The notes under the pieces were generated by a model. It was given only the letters and a program-made list of their open reading frames with translations. It was not told the DNA's origin and searched no databases. From Alphaproteobacteria bacterium (GTDB lineage Bacteria; Pseudomonadota; Alphaproteobacteria; Bin95): DNA of 34,902 nucleotides. The DNA lies in assembly GCA_026710105.1 (NCBI GenBank), contig JAPORR010000074.1, positions 1 to 34,902 of the forward strand. Direction: 5' to 3'. The translations under genes and the position numbers were made by a program. Below are positions 29,034-34,902 of the stretch, one piece after another; within the stretch, counting starts at the first letter, position 1, and each line of letters begins with the position of its first letter.

Positions 29034-30050
29034 ATGTTTCGATCCTTTTTTGGCAACCGCCGCTGGATGCACTGGTCCCTGCTCGGCAGTATCCTGATTC
29101 TGGGCGTCACCTGGTATAAGGTCCAACTCGATGTACGCATCAACGAATGGTTTGGGGACTTCTACGATACGCTCCAGCAAGCGCTGACTGAACCTGGTTC
29201 CATTACCTTCGATGAATTCCTCAGTAAATGCCTGACATTCGCGGAAATCGCGGCGGTCTACATCGTGATCGCTGTCTTATTAGAATTCTTTGTGCGCCAC
29301 TATGTTTTTCGCTGGCGCACGGCGATGAACGACTACTACATGTTTCATTGGCAGAAATTACGCCATATTGAGGGTGCCGCGCAGCGGGTCCAGGAGGACA
29401 CGATGCGCTTTGCCCGTATTGTCGAGGGGTTGGGCGTTGCCTTCATGCGCTCGGTCATGACGTTGTTCGCATTCCTGCCGCTTCTCTGGGGATTGAGCGC
29501 AAATGTGACGGAATTACCCTGGATCGGTCCGGTCGATCATTCACTTGTCTGGCTTGCGATTATCTCTGCCGCGGCAGGCACCGTGCTGCTGGCGGTTGTC
29601 GGCATCAAGCTGCCGGGCTTGGAATTCAACAACCAGAAGGTCGAAGCGGCTTATCGTAAGGAGCTAGTCTATGGCGAAGACGCACAGGAGCGAGCGGAAC
29701 CCCAGACGGTGCTCGAATTATTCACCGATGTACGCCGCAATTACTTCCGCTTGTTTCTTCATTACATGTATTTTGACATTGCCAAATGGTCCTACCTCCA
29801 GTTCGGCGTCATGGTGCCATACATCATGATGGGTCCGACCATTGTGTCAGGCGTCATCACACTCGGCGTGCTTCAGCAGATCCTGCGTGCCTTCGACCGG
29901 GTCGAGGGATCCTTCCAGTTTCTGGTGAATTCCTGGTCGACAATTGTCGAGCTTATGTCGATCTACAAGCGCCTCAAGGCCTTCGAGAGTGCCATCCTCA
30001 ACCCGTCATCGGACATGGCCGGAGGCGCGCCCGCACATGTCGGAAGCTAA
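29034..30050 (+). CDS. SbmA/BacA-family peptide transporter, N-terminally short
   Basis: The inner-membrane protein is 338 residues and very similar to E. coli SbmA, the proton-driven importer of peptide antibiotics (BacA in rhizobia). Shared blocks are HYVFRWRTAMNDYYM, HIEGAAQRVQEDTMRFA, VGIKLPGLEFNNQ, VEAAYRKELVYGED, NYFRLFLHYMYFDIA and NSWSTIVELMSIYKRLKAFE. At least five hydrophobic segments are visible. E. coli SbmA has about 406 residues. This protein lines up from about residue 80 of SbmA and lacks the first two membrane segments. The start is well supported by GGAGGA 8 nt before the ATG, and no homologous frame was seen upstream, so the short form appears real. It lacks any ATPase domain. 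Confidence 0.9.
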   Translation: MFRSFFGNRRWMHWSLLGSILILGVTWYKVQLDVRINEWFGDFYDTLQQALTEPGSITFDEFLSKCLTFAEIAAVYIVIAVLLEFFVRHYVFRWRTAMNDYYMFHWQKLRHIEGAAQRVQEDTMRFARIVEGLGVAFMRSVMTLFAFLPLLWGLSANVTELPWIGPVDHSLVWLAIISAAAGTVLLAVVGIKLPGLEFNNQKVEAAYRKELVYGEDAQERAEPQTVLELFTDVRRNYFRLFLHYMYFDIAKWSYLQFGVMVPYIMMGPTIVSGVITLGVLQQILRAFDRVEGSFQFLVNSWSTIVELMSIYKRLKAFESAILNPSSDMAGGAPAHVGS

Positions 30051-31758: not shown

Positions 31759-32883
31759 ATGGACTTCGACTATTCCGAGGACCAGAAACTCCTGCAGGAG
31801 AGTATGCAGCGCTTCGTGCGCGAGAACTATAGCTTCGAGGCACGGCGCGCATTGGTCGCCACCGAGCAGGGCTATTCCGACGCACATTGGACCCGGTTCG
31901 CGGAGCTCGGTTGGCTCGGCATCCCCTTCCCGGAAGAATACGGTGGTCTGGGCATGTCCGGTGTCGAGACGATGGTGGTCATGGAGGCGATTGGCAGCGG
32001 GCTGGTGGCAGAGCCCTATCTCTCCACTGTGATACTGGGCGGCGGCGCGGTGTCAGCAGCTGGGTCAGACGCGCAGAAGGACGAAATCCTGCCTGCCATC
32101 GCGGAAGGCAGATGTAAACTCGCCTTCGCCTTCGCCGAGCGTCAGGCACGCTACAACCTTCAAGATGTCGAGATGCGCGCCGTGGCCGAGAACGGCAACT
32201 ACAGGCTATCCGGCACCAAGAGTGTCGTGTTCGGCGCGCCGACAGCGGATCGGTTCGTTGTCTCGGCCCGCACGGGCGGCGGTTCGCGGGATGCAGCGGG
32301 CATCACCCTCTTCCTCGTTGCCGCGGATGCGCCCGGACTTTCCGTGCGCAGCTATCCAACGGCAGACGGTCTCCGGGCCGGGGAGGTAATGCTCGACAAC
32401 ACGCCGGCTGAGGGTGTGCTCGGCGAGGTGGATAGCGCGCTCACGACTATTGAGGAGGTCGTGGACCGGGCAATTGCGGCGGTCGCGGCGGAAGCTGTTG
32501 GCCTGATGGGCGCGCTCAATGACATGACGCTCGAATATCTCAAGACGCGCGAGCAGTTCGGCCAGCCCATCGGGCGGTTCCAGGTGCTCCAGCACCGCAT
32601 GGTGGATATGTTTATTGCGCATGAGGAAGCGAAATCGATGGCGATGATGGCAGCCATGCGCATCGACGAGGATGATCCTGGTGTCCGCAAGAAGGCCATG
32701 TCTGCTACTAAGGTGCAGATCGGTAAATCGGCTCGCTTCATCGGCCAGCAATCGATCCAGCTGCATGGCGGCATCGGCATGACCGACGAATATGCCGCAG
32801 GCCACTATTTCAAGCGCCTCACCATGATCGACCGCAGTTTCGGCGACAGCGACTACCATCTCAGGCGTTACGCCGCACTGTAA
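31759..32883 (+). CDS. Acyl-CoA dehydrogenase, second of an adjacent pair
   Basis: The 374-residue protein begins MDFDYSEDQKLLQESMQRFV, a typical family N terminus; upstream in-frame codons were discarded because they lie within the preceding gene. It has PFPEEYGGLGMSGVETMVV, KSVVFGAPTADRFVVSART, EQFGQPIGRFQVLQHRMVDM and LHGGIGMTDEYAAGHYFKR. The end reads YFKRLTMIDRSFGDSDYHLRRYA, without the usual EGTxxIxR block that holds the catalytic Glu. The middle domain lacks the common TEPxxGSD motif, instead showing FAFAERQARYN. Both features fit a partner subunit of a heteromeric acyl-CoA dehydrogenase. The stop is followed directly by foreign-looking DNA. Confidence 0.88.
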   Translation: MDFDYSEDQKLLQESMQRFVRENYSFEARRALVATEQGYSDAHWTRFAELGWLGIPFPEEYGGLGMSGVETMVVMEAIGSGLVAEPYLSTVILGGGAVSAAGSDAQKDEILPAIAEGRCKLAFAFAERQARYNLQDVEMRAVAENGNYRLSGTKSVVFGAPTADRFVVSARTGGGSRDAAGITLFLVAADAPGLSVRSYPTADGLRAGEVMLDNTPAEGVLGEVDSALTTIEEVVDRAIAAVAAEAVGLMGALNDMTLEYLKTREQFGQPIGRFQVLQHRMVDMFIAHEEAKSMAMMAAMRIDEDDPGVRKKAMSATKVQIGKSARFIGQQSIQLHGGIGMTDEYAAGHYFKRLTMIDRSFGDSDYHLRRYAAL

Positions 32884-32891
32884 GCTCAACT

Positions 32892-33221
32892 TTGTGCATT
32901 ATGTTGCGACGCAGAAGGTGTAGTGCATGCCCTTACTACTCTGCATGGGTAACACAGCAGAAATTGAAGCAGTCCGAACATACTGGAACTGTCTTTGGTG
33001 CTATTAACAAGAGACAATTCAAAGCTCTATGCGTTATGGAACCAACATCTGAAATCATCGCGAACTTCAATGACCAAATTGATCCCCTTGATGATCATAT
33101 CAAGAAGAATGTTGCAGAGAGTCGAACCCTAATCCAAACCCGTGACCTTCTTCTGCCGAAGCTCATGTCGGGCGAACTCTGCCTCCAGGAGTCCAAAGCC
33201 GCGGTGAAGGCGGTCGCGTGA
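32892..33221 (+). pseudogene. hsdS: C-terminal remnant of a type I restriction specificity subunit (HsdS)
   Basis: The open frame from about 32892 to the TGA at 33219-33221 encodes about 109 residues. From the YYSAW segment onward it resembles the C-terminal end of HsdS, the DNA-recognition subunit of type I restriction-modification enzymes: SEHTGTVFGAINKRQFKAL, then the conserved-helix end NVAESRTLIQTRDLLLPKLM followed by SGEL. Both target-recognition domains and the first conserved region are missing, so it cannot specify DNA binding. The first 15 or so residues do not look like HsdS. Composition is about 41 % GC over 32941-33120 by hand count, well below neighbouring genes. The remnant starts 8 nt after the acyl-CoA dehydrogenase stop, marking a sharp junction. 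Confidence 0.8.
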
Positions 33222-34902
33222 TGATTCAGGACAAAGATATCCGCCGCCAGCTTCGCTTGGGCGAGGACAGCCGGTGGGAATTCAAGCAGATCGAGTTTCG
33301 CGGTGACACGCCGACCAGCCCGCGCAGAGACGACCTGGCAGACGAACTGGGTGCGTTCGCGAATGCAGACGGCGGCATTGTGCTGTGTGGGGTGGCCGAC
33401 GATGGAGCAATCCGGGGTATATCGCGAGAACAGATGGCAGCCCTGGATCACTTGCTGGTAGAGGTCAGCACCGACACCCTTGAGCCGCCATTGCGCATTG
33501 ACGTCCATCACAGGGAACTAGATGGCAGGGCATTCGTGCTGGTGGCAGTGCCGCGCGGCGAAACTCTGCATGAACGGGGCGGGCAGGCATTCATTCGGGT
33601 TGGCGCAACAAAACGGCGCCTCCGGAGGGACGAGAGCGTGAGGCTGACGCAGAATCGTGCGCAAAACCGCTATCTCTGGTTCGATGAGCGGATCGTGCCC
33701 GAGACTGGCTTTGAGACGCTCAGCGAGCGCCTATGGGAGCCGCTGCTCAGCGTGGCGGGGGCGGCGGATCCGCGGCGTGGATTGCTGAATCTCCGCTTAC
33801 TGGCGCGGGATGAAGCCGGCGTGGATCGTGCCACCGTGGCCGGAGTATTGCTTTGCGCCTCCGCACCACAAGACTGGTTAACGCAAGCTACCATCGCGGC
33901 GGCGCATTATCGCGGATTGGATCGTGCCTCCGGCCAATTGGACGCACAGGAGATCACCGGACCGCTTCCCGCACAGATCGCGGATGCGGTTCAATTCGTC
34001 GTTCGCAATATGCGTGTTTCTGCGCGCAAGACGCCCGAACGGGAGGATGTTTCCCAGTACAGCAAGGCCGCCGTGTTCGAAGCCATAGTCAACGCAGTCG
34101 CGCACCGTGACTACTCCGTGACTTCGCGGAGGATCCGGCTATCCATGTTTAAGGACCGCCTGGAGATCGATTCACCTGGCCACCTGCCCAATAGCATGAC
34201 GATCGAGGGCATGGAGGCTAGTCAGGCCACTCGCAACGAGGTGATCGCATCCGTATTCGGGCGCATTCCTGTCGCCAATGTGGCGGGGGCGGGTCATCGT
34301 AGATATCTGATGGAACGTCGGGGGGACGGCGTGTCGATCATCCGAACAGAAACCCAGGAAGCCACCGGAGTGCCGCCGGAATACGAAGTGGTCGATGAAT
34401 CAAGCCTTGTGCTCCGCATCCCTGCTGCGAAGCTGGAGCTCGTTCCAGCGGACGCGACGATCACGGTGCATTCCAGAGGCGAACCCCTCATCGGCATCGA
34501 GGTTCTAGCGCTCTTTCCTAACAAGACCTGGGTGCGCGCGACAACCGATGAGGCCGGCAATGCGGCTCTTGACCTTTACACAGCGCATATGCCGATGACG
34601 ATTTATGCCTCTGGGGCCGGGTATGCGGCCGGGCTGGAGCGGGCGTGGACACCTAGTCGGGGTGGGTTACTGCTTGAACTCGAACCGCTTGAATCTGGTG
34701 GTGCCATGATTTTTGCCCAGAGCACGGGGCACCTGCCCGGCCTGCGTGGACGGCTGAACCCGATACACGATACCTTCGGCCGAACCTATCTATACGCCGA
34801 CAACATCGCCATCGACGAGGGACGGCAACAACCAGTGCCGTTTCGACCCGGCAAACCGCTTCGACTGACGGACGCCCAGGGTACGGAATTGTCGGTCACC
34901 AT
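33221..34902 (+). CDS. AlbA_2/GHKL-type ATP-binding protein with Ig-like tail (partial)
   Basis: The frame is open from the ATG at 33221 through the window edge (560 codons, no stop), so the gene is incomplete at its 3' end. An N-terminal AlbA_2 (Schlafen AlbA-type) domain covers about 14-125 (EDSRWEFKQIEF, DELGAFANADGGIVLCGVADDG, GQAFIRVGATKRRL). A GHKL/HATPase_c_4-like region follows at about 275-330 (YSKAAVFEAIVNAVAHRDYS, where NAVAHRDY is the ATP-site motif, then LEIDSPGHLPN). From about 411 the sequence turns beta-rich and resembles a carboxypeptidase-regulatory or Ig-like domain (WVRATTDEAGNAALDL). The start overlaps the HsdS remnant stop as TGATG, as in type I restriction operons that carry such a gene between hsdS and hsdR. 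A defence role is inferred from that context. It was read directly from the bases. Confidence 0.85.
   Translation, partial: MIQDKDIRRQLRLGEDSRWEFKQIEFRGDTPTSPRRDDLADELGAFANADGGIVLCGVADDGAIRGISREQMAALDHLLVEVSTDTLEPPLRIDVHHRELDGRAFVLVAVPRGETLHERGGQAFIRVGATKRRLRRDESVRLTQNRAQNRYLWFDERIVPETGFETLSERLWEPLLSVAGAADPRRGLLNLRLLARDEAGVDRATVAGVLLCASAPQDWLTQATIAAAHYRGLDRASGQLDAQEITGPLPAQIADAVQFVVRNMRVSARKTPEREDVSQYSKAAVFEAIVNAVAHRDYSVTSRRIRLSMFKDRLEIDSPGHLPNSMTIEGMEASQATRNEVIASVFGRIPVANVAGAGHRRYLMERRGDGVSIIRTETQEATGVPPEYEVVDESSLVLRIPAAKLELVPADATITVHSRGEPLIGIEVLALFPNKTWVRATTDEAGNAALDLYTAHMPMTIYASGAGYAAGLERAWTPSRGGLLLELEPLESGGAMIFAQSTGHLPGLRGRLNPIHDTFGRTYLYADNIAIDEGRQQPVPFRPGKPLRLTDAQGTELSVT

Follow-up and report, generated by a model that had tools for sequence, protein, structure and literature searches.

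In ecoprrI, the prrC gene lies between hsdS and hsdR. PrrC, encoded within a type IC locus, is described as a guardian of restriction-modification (RM): it is a tRNA-Lys anticodon nuclease that becomes active when Stp of phage T4 inhibits EcoPrrI (PMC12707154). According to PMC12839542, at least 1017 taxa have Schlafen RNases that are joined to a minimal histidine-kinase domain and a wHTH and are associated with BREX or BREX-related loci, and a type III BREX from a sponge metagenome is described as carrying an inserted gene with a conserved RNase-like Mg-binding triad, for which SLFN13 and SLFN12 structures are cited (PMC8777954). A search of the open-licence literature, with bioRxiv outside its scope, yielded no description of a Schlafen/AlbA_2 gene in type I loci.

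The window analysed here comprises 34,902 nt and is the entire contig C131 (JAPORR010000074.1, positions 1-34,902), one of the 246 contigs that make up a genome of 3.35 Mb. We consider it likely that its right end holds a decayed operon of the order hsdM-hsdS-AlbA_2-DUF4411-hsdR, of which a Schlafen-type gene survives whose product would most likely be a latent, ATP-switched RNase (Table 1). This reading explains an odd junction as the decay of a definable operon.

Table 1. Features at the right end of the window and in the intact operon L086 (MAG contig labelled Aestuariivita sp.); positions without prefix refer to the window.
Feature	Position	Strand	Basis
Acyl-CoA dehydrogenase, native left neighbour	31759..32883	+	orthologues in same-genus genomes
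52-base insertion-sequence end (DDE_5-type transposase family), outer end 32883	32883..32934	+	repeat copies
hsdS 3' fragment, ~95 codons, own stop	32931..33221	+	tblastn; L086 DNA homology
AlbA_2 (Schlafen)-GHKL gene, start ATG 33221 (or GTG 33218)	33218..34902, then C25	+	Pfam, contig overlap
Schlafen AlbA_2 domain, residues 16-135	33263..33622	+	Pfam; triad alignment; L086 model fold
HATPase_c_4/GHKL ATP-binding domain, residues 305-393	34130..34396	+	Pfam; N-box; fold
Transthyretin-like (carboxypeptidase regulatory-like) beta domain, residues about 409-492	34442..34693	+	L086 model fold
Start of C-terminal beta domain, residues 493-579 including C25	34694..34900	+	no confident structural match
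55-base exact overlap with start of contig C25	34848..34902	+	locus continues on C25
L086 hsdM	L086:1135-2694
L086 hsdS	L086:2681-4060
L086 AlbA_2	L086:4057-5799
L086 DUF4411-like ORF	L086:5796-6071
L086 hsdR	from about L086:6070

A preliminary description had placed a sharp junction at 32884, immediately after an acyl-CoA dehydrogenase gene. The dehydrogenase, with its stop codon at 32881-32883, is native: orthologues occur in 5 of 7 other same-genus genomes, with DNA identity of 83-85% up to window position 32882, and comparison with these relatives, proposed as a check on the left boundary, showed that all five lose homology at the stop codon. The DNA that follows in four of the five is mutually homologous and unlike the window, while the contig of the fifth ends shortly after; part of the relatives' DNA was found in G000 on C118, near a contig end. 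Since the first 52 bases past the dehydrogenase are an insertion-sequence (IS) end, the junction with hsdS has to be moved from 32884 to about 32931-32935. The TAA stop of the dehydrogenase and the IS end have one base in common, the last of the stop (32883).

Copies of the 52-base repeat are present in the same genome on C122 (94% identity) and C111 (82%), and in the same-genus genome G006 (C122). A broken transposase adjoins the C111 copy; compared pairwise by tblastx, it matches the transposase of a Rhizobium plasmid (1e-28, two sequences only), and this Rhizobium transposase belongs to DDE_5 (Pfam, E 3.8e-25). The inverted ends of this Rhizobium element (L174) match the start of the repeat at 16 of 18 positions; the first link of the repeat to Rhizobium plasmids was weak (E 0.1, 3 records). 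A complete DDE_5-type insertion sequence, with transposase and two inverted ends, was not found in the window, which keeps one 52-base end. The repeat was also considered as the 3' coding end of a transposase on the + strand, and this was rejected because the transposase lies on the - strand. On C122 of the same genome the repeat directly follows an HNH endonuclease gene, and homology with 5 of 7 relatives stops at the stop codon of that gene. On C111 (L009:7526-9206) the same IS end, with the broken transposase, lies ~12 bases past the stop of a gene encoding an HSDR_N-bearing protein (E 1.8e-6).

To the right of the IS end the expected HsdS remnant was recovered: C-terminal similarity begins at residue 14 of the ORF ending at 33221, that is, from window position 32931 onwards (tblastn). 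The stub matched 101 plasmid records (best E 6e-17), with restriction subunit S annotated in 19 of the 20 listed, and it comprises the end of the second recognition domain and the C-terminal helix. The TGATG coupling is also as described, the hsdS stop (33219-33221) overlapping the AlbA_2 ATG (33221-33223). The reported drop in base composition holds for the IS end and the stub, whose GC content of 0.473 lies below that of all 32,600 windows of the same length in 1-32883 (minimum 0.481), but not for the AlbA_2 part in the window (0.611 versus 0.619 for the rest of the window). The lowest-GC native stretch of the window contains an SbmA/BacA-family transporter gene (29034-30050; PF05992, E 2.5e-150).

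The window stops within the AlbA_2 gene because the contig ends, and its right edge is therefore no biological boundary. The gene is completed on C25 with a stop at C25:108-110, giving 579 open codons across the overlap counted from 33218 and a protein ending in EYRPFEP, compared with EYQPFEP in the closest relative. A 76-codon ORF overlaps this stop as ATGA. The opening ~22 codons of this ORF match the beginning of the DUF4411-like ORF in L086. Residues 28-53 are similar to a central stretch of HsdS, a piece of about 25 residues with weak E-values: the best E among 11 matching plasmid records, 10 of them annotated as subunit S, was 0.02, and positions 130-154 of the Methylase_S profile were matched at E 0.013, which does not reach the cut-off. 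From C25:393-407 onward an ABC-transporter operon follows on the opposite strand that is homologous in the 4 same-genus genomes compared. Thus, the right side up to and into this native operon holds no hsdR, displaced hsdM or integrase, which the preliminary description had suggested looking for, and the absence of hsdM stated there extends from the hsdS fragment to the ABC operon. A functional type I locus, with hsdM, a full-length two-domain hsdS and hsdR, is not present: hsdS is represented only by ~95 codons from its C-terminal end and ~25 from its middle. Insertion of AlbA_2 into a single hsdS does not fit this arrangement, as the C-terminal piece precedes AlbA_2 and the middle piece follows it; such an order could be accounted for by a circular intermediate or by a second hsdS. 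The IS end abutting the hsdS fragment, the break in synteny and the lack of hsdM and hsdR on the right support the proposal that recombination cut into a defence locus.

The order of the lost operon is provided by L086, in which hsdM-hsdS-[TGATG]-AlbA_2-[ATGA]-DUF4411-hsdR follow one another and AlbA_2 is 85% identical to that of the window. The segment from window position 33135, where DNA homology of the stub to the end of the intact hsdS starts, to about C25:170 aligns with L086:3974-5859 at 82% identity across both gene overlaps; this collinear DNA homology identifies the window locus as a remnant of such an operon. The DUF4411-like ORF of L086 matched DUF4411 with an E-value of 1.4e-4, slightly below the cut-off. 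As the same TGATG joins a full-length hsdS to AlbA_2 in L086, the coupling predates the truncation. This makes superfluous the earlier suggestion that the HsdS stub was kept as a leader or partner of the ATP-binding protein, and an evolved leader was rejected as the origin of the arrangement. Judged by the alignment, the coupled hsdS/AlbA_2 is the normal junction of the intact operon after loss of the remainder, and the stub is a remnant. An origin from the type I locus on contig C53 of the same genome was also rejected, the similarity being 84% over only 69 bases and the C53 operon being without AlbA_2. That locus (L011:4645-11758) looks complete; its hsdS and hsdR are separated by genes for an AAA_21 ATPase and a DUF4276 protein.

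The identity of the surviving protein as AlbA_2/GHKL was borne out by both Pfam domains, SLFN_AlbA_2 (PF04326; E 3.5e-16, 60.2 bits versus a curated cut-off of 25.3) and HATPase_c_4 (E 1.8e-18, 66.8 bits versus 26). Residues E16, E21 and D61 align with E205, E210 and D248 of rSLFN13 (hmmsearch to 5yd0; 13-residue offset worked out by hand), the mutation of which lowered activity (PMC5862951). Among long-form proteins, which have a C-terminal extension, E16 is conserved in 35/35, E21 in 34/35 and D61 in 33/35, and the N-box residues E288 and N292 are invariant (35/35). The triad does not set the long form apart, because 26 of 28 short-form proteins carry a triad-like pattern. The orthologue in L086 was modelled with AlphaFold2 (pLDDT 88.9). 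In this model the Schlafen lobe (residues 1-131) resembles SLFN11, 12, 13, 14 and 5 at Z about 9-10 and the SAMD9 tRNase domain at Z 10.1; the GHKL domain (residues 223-406) adopts a histidine-kinase/PDK-like fold, matching the ATPase folds of kinases, and residues 409-492 are transthyretin-like (Z about 11). The last ~90 residues form a confident beta fold (pLDDT 93.7) without a significant match in PDB and Pfam sequence searches; the best Foldseek E-value of 0.28 and the best VIA-align Z of 6.7 over 84 residues do not show that the fold is new. Pfam gave AlbA_2 and HATPase_c_4 only, with neither an ABC-type ATPase nor a HEPN nuclease domain found. None of 4 proteins searched matched NCBIfam, and PADLOC returned only weak pAgo/Aga models, through common domains.

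From these data we propose the following history. A DDE_5-type insertion sequence would have come to sit beside the dehydrogenase stop, and a later deletion would have left 52 terminal bases of the element abutting the end of hsdS, eliminating hsdM and most of hsdS; this order of events is the one we infer. A second break on the right would have fused the DUF4411-like ORF at codon ~22 to the middle piece of hsdS, with loss of hsdR. The AlbA_2/GHKL gene is the only intact survivor, presumably kept under selection. Its product is a putative latent RNase as far as residues and fold indicate, probably acting on tRNA with the ATP-binding part as a switch, and would shut down translation upon phage infection.

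A different reading takes the whole block as a dead relic in which everything is decaying and AlbA_2 is merely the last unbroken part. Both flanks are indeed fragments, breakpoints in other parts of the genome also carry IS ends (C122), and the genome is small (3.35 Mb versus 4.0-5.0 Mb listed for G001-G005). Nevertheless, 579 codons are open and all family-invariant motifs are kept. Pairwise dN/dS versus L086 is 0.11, a value that averages both lineages and is compatible with a recent loss of function; it does not exceed that of other pairs (0.08-0.14), and the window gene compared with seven relatives gave 0.08-0.13. We therefore regard a mere relic as rather unlikely.

Whether the gene depends on a type I system was approached through its relatives. 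The best 80 of 582 confirmed loci on genome contigs, which are related by descent, divide into 52 of the long form and 28 of a shorter relative. In this set, 37 long-form loci are flanked on either side by 2.5 kb or more. A type I gene lies within that distance in 11 of them (L086, L087, L090, L098, L099, L100, L101, L105, L107, L114 and L122), and 26 have none at the threshold used, among them L118 with a weak HsdM-like match at 2.1 kb; no such gene was seen near any of the 28 short-form loci, 17 of which have full flanks. HsdR was detected with queries from C53 and L131, and the hsd queries catch only similar type I families. With 26 of 37 loci lacking a nearby type I gene, linkage to type I systems is frequent without being a defining feature. 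The place of AlbA_2 within type I loci varies: it stands before hsdM, between hsdM and hsdS, or between hsdS and hsdR. In L090 and L101, as in the window, only fragments of hsd genes lie beside AlbA_2. Thus, AlbA_2 often travels in type I loci yet does not need one, which would explain how it could outlive them, and the surviving gene may perhaps be an autonomous anti-phage effector, consistent with the many copies without type I genes.

Close relatives among the best 80 of 582 loci are spread over many phyla. A rapid tree built from 35 proteins places the window in a well-supported group of nine, in which Pseudomonadota, Cyanobacteriota and Verrucomicrobiota are intermingled. Six of the nine are labelled type I, a label also given to the window, to loci with hsd fragments only and to L085; it requires at least 6 changes on this tree, and among 500 shuffles 14 to 21 were equally low. 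A pattern search in viral contigs gave 389 matches, none of which was confirmed as a relative. Many MAG names among the relatives are, we presume, those of sponge-symbiont projects. Sponge symbionts are described as enriched in defence genes (PMC8777954), and sponge microbiomes as having a high prevalence of transposases (PMC5099237).

Several of these loci carry further arrangements. In the type I operon of L098 (4934-6971), HsdS has an N-terminal nucleotidyltransferase (MNT) domain (NTP_transf_2, E 6.4e-6), and the gene ahead of it is of the NTase_sub_bind (HEPN-like) kind (E 4.6e-12), which amounts to a toxin-antitoxin-like pair fused into the specificity subunit; an ORF in L101 (8837-9250) and ORFs of similar size in L087 suggest that this arrangement recurs. 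In L085 (4966-8740), from a MAG that bears the label Prochlorococcaceae, AlbA_2 is immediately preceded by a complete DUF4411 gene (E 1.4e-52) and an RmrA-like gene of the HTH/ImmA type; hsdS is found farther upstream, 4.8 kb away. A 61%-identical AlbA_2 gene in L051 (8672-11782; G005:C251) adjoins an NTase_sub_bind gene (E 1.9e-10); no hsd gene was recognised by eye in its ORF list, and it is perhaps another stripped operon. On C155 of the same genome (L010:1618-3826), a 59%-identical AlbA_2 paralogue stands directly behind a chimeric ORF, near transposase-like remains; this ORF, without a Pfam match, has by eye an ogt-like start and a methylase-like end.

The L086 order also invites the reading of a guard resembling PrrC, in which a Schlafen-type RNase is silenced by the coupled type I enzyme and freed when a phage blocks restriction, the window copy being an orphan. 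AlbA_2 lies between hsdS and hsdR in L086 with overlapping start and stop codons, hsdS is directly upstream of AlbA_2 also in L098 and L105, the Schlafen triad is conserved, and PrrC offers the precedent outlined above. However, 26 of the 37 fully flanked long-form loci among the best 80 of 582 have no type I gene within 2.5 kb, the window copy is intact without one, a nuclease silenced by the restriction enzyme alone should be toxic or soon lost as an orphan, and the position of AlbA_2 within type I loci is not constant. We thus find a guard of this kind unlikely. A broader and more doubtful version would see the Schlafen-type RNase as a recurrent third layer of type I loci that fills the PrrC niche of ecoprrI: the hsdS-coupled protein would sense blocked restriction via its GHKL and beta domains and then destroy tRNA, would have spread across phyla, and orphan copies like that of the window would persist by changing to another trigger. 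Intact loci such as L086 allow a guard of the restriction enzyme to be told apart from a mere fellow traveller, and the retention of AlbA_2 beside broken hsd genes (window, L090, L101) offers a natural experiment that bears on which components of such operons are worth keeping by themselves.

AlbA_2 proteins are elsewhere annotated as DNA-binding or RecG-like. In line with the treatment of Schlafen AlbA_2 as a DNA-binding domain in PMC6299218, the protein might be a regulatory accessory without nuclease function that binds nucleic acid through AlbA_2, has its GHKL part as a regulator and tunes the expression of neighbouring defence genes; the paralogue on C155 and many solitary copies in unrelated contexts would suit such a role. 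Against it, all three acidic residues required for SLFN13 RNase activity are conserved, and no helix-turn-helix is seen in the L086 model, where residues ~383-580 are almost all strands, with one 4-residue helix in 388-580. We consider this role improbable. A promoter scan upstream of the AlbA_2 gene found no promoter-like site, with 0.5 expected.

That the dehydrogenase contig was misjoined to foreign DNA at a repeat is very improbable: the left junction does lie inside a repeat and the assembly is fragmented (246 contigs), but the longest exact word that the junction has in common with the own-genome loci examined is 24 bases, too short for a graph of k ~55 as implied by the 55-base overlap, and the reading frame is unbroken across C131-C25 and ends like those of relatives.

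Compared with described systems, the decayed operon proposed here has several partial counterparts. DIP2311 of Corynebacterium diphtheriae (3LMM, structural genomics) has the same AlbA_2-to-GHKL order and matches the L086 model at Z 22.9 over 356 residues, but with 22% identity and a match that stops at model residue 405, before the beta domains. The Schlafen-HK-wHTH proteins linked to BREX, as described in PMC12839542, likewise have an N-terminal Schlafen domain followed by a histidine-kinase-like ATPase and lie beside a methylation-based defence locus; here, in contrast, the place of the wHTH is taken by a transthyretin-like and a ~90-residue beta domain, and the linkage is to type I RM. By its description in PMC8777954, the gene of the sponge type III BREX is similarly an accessory gene inserted in a defence operon, with BREX there and type I RM here. 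Unlike PrrC and RloC, the window protein has a Schlafen-GHKL-beta-domain architecture, with no ABC/AAA or HEPN domain found, and its restriction genes are gone. The likeness to ecoprrI/prrC resides in L086, whose accessory gene, with a proposed nuclease role, lies between hsdS and hsdR with overlapping codons, a position that the window, where hsdR is absent, does not display. In such type I loci a cross-phylum Schlafen-GHKL protein with an unusual C-terminus occupies the position that PrrC holds in ecoprrI.
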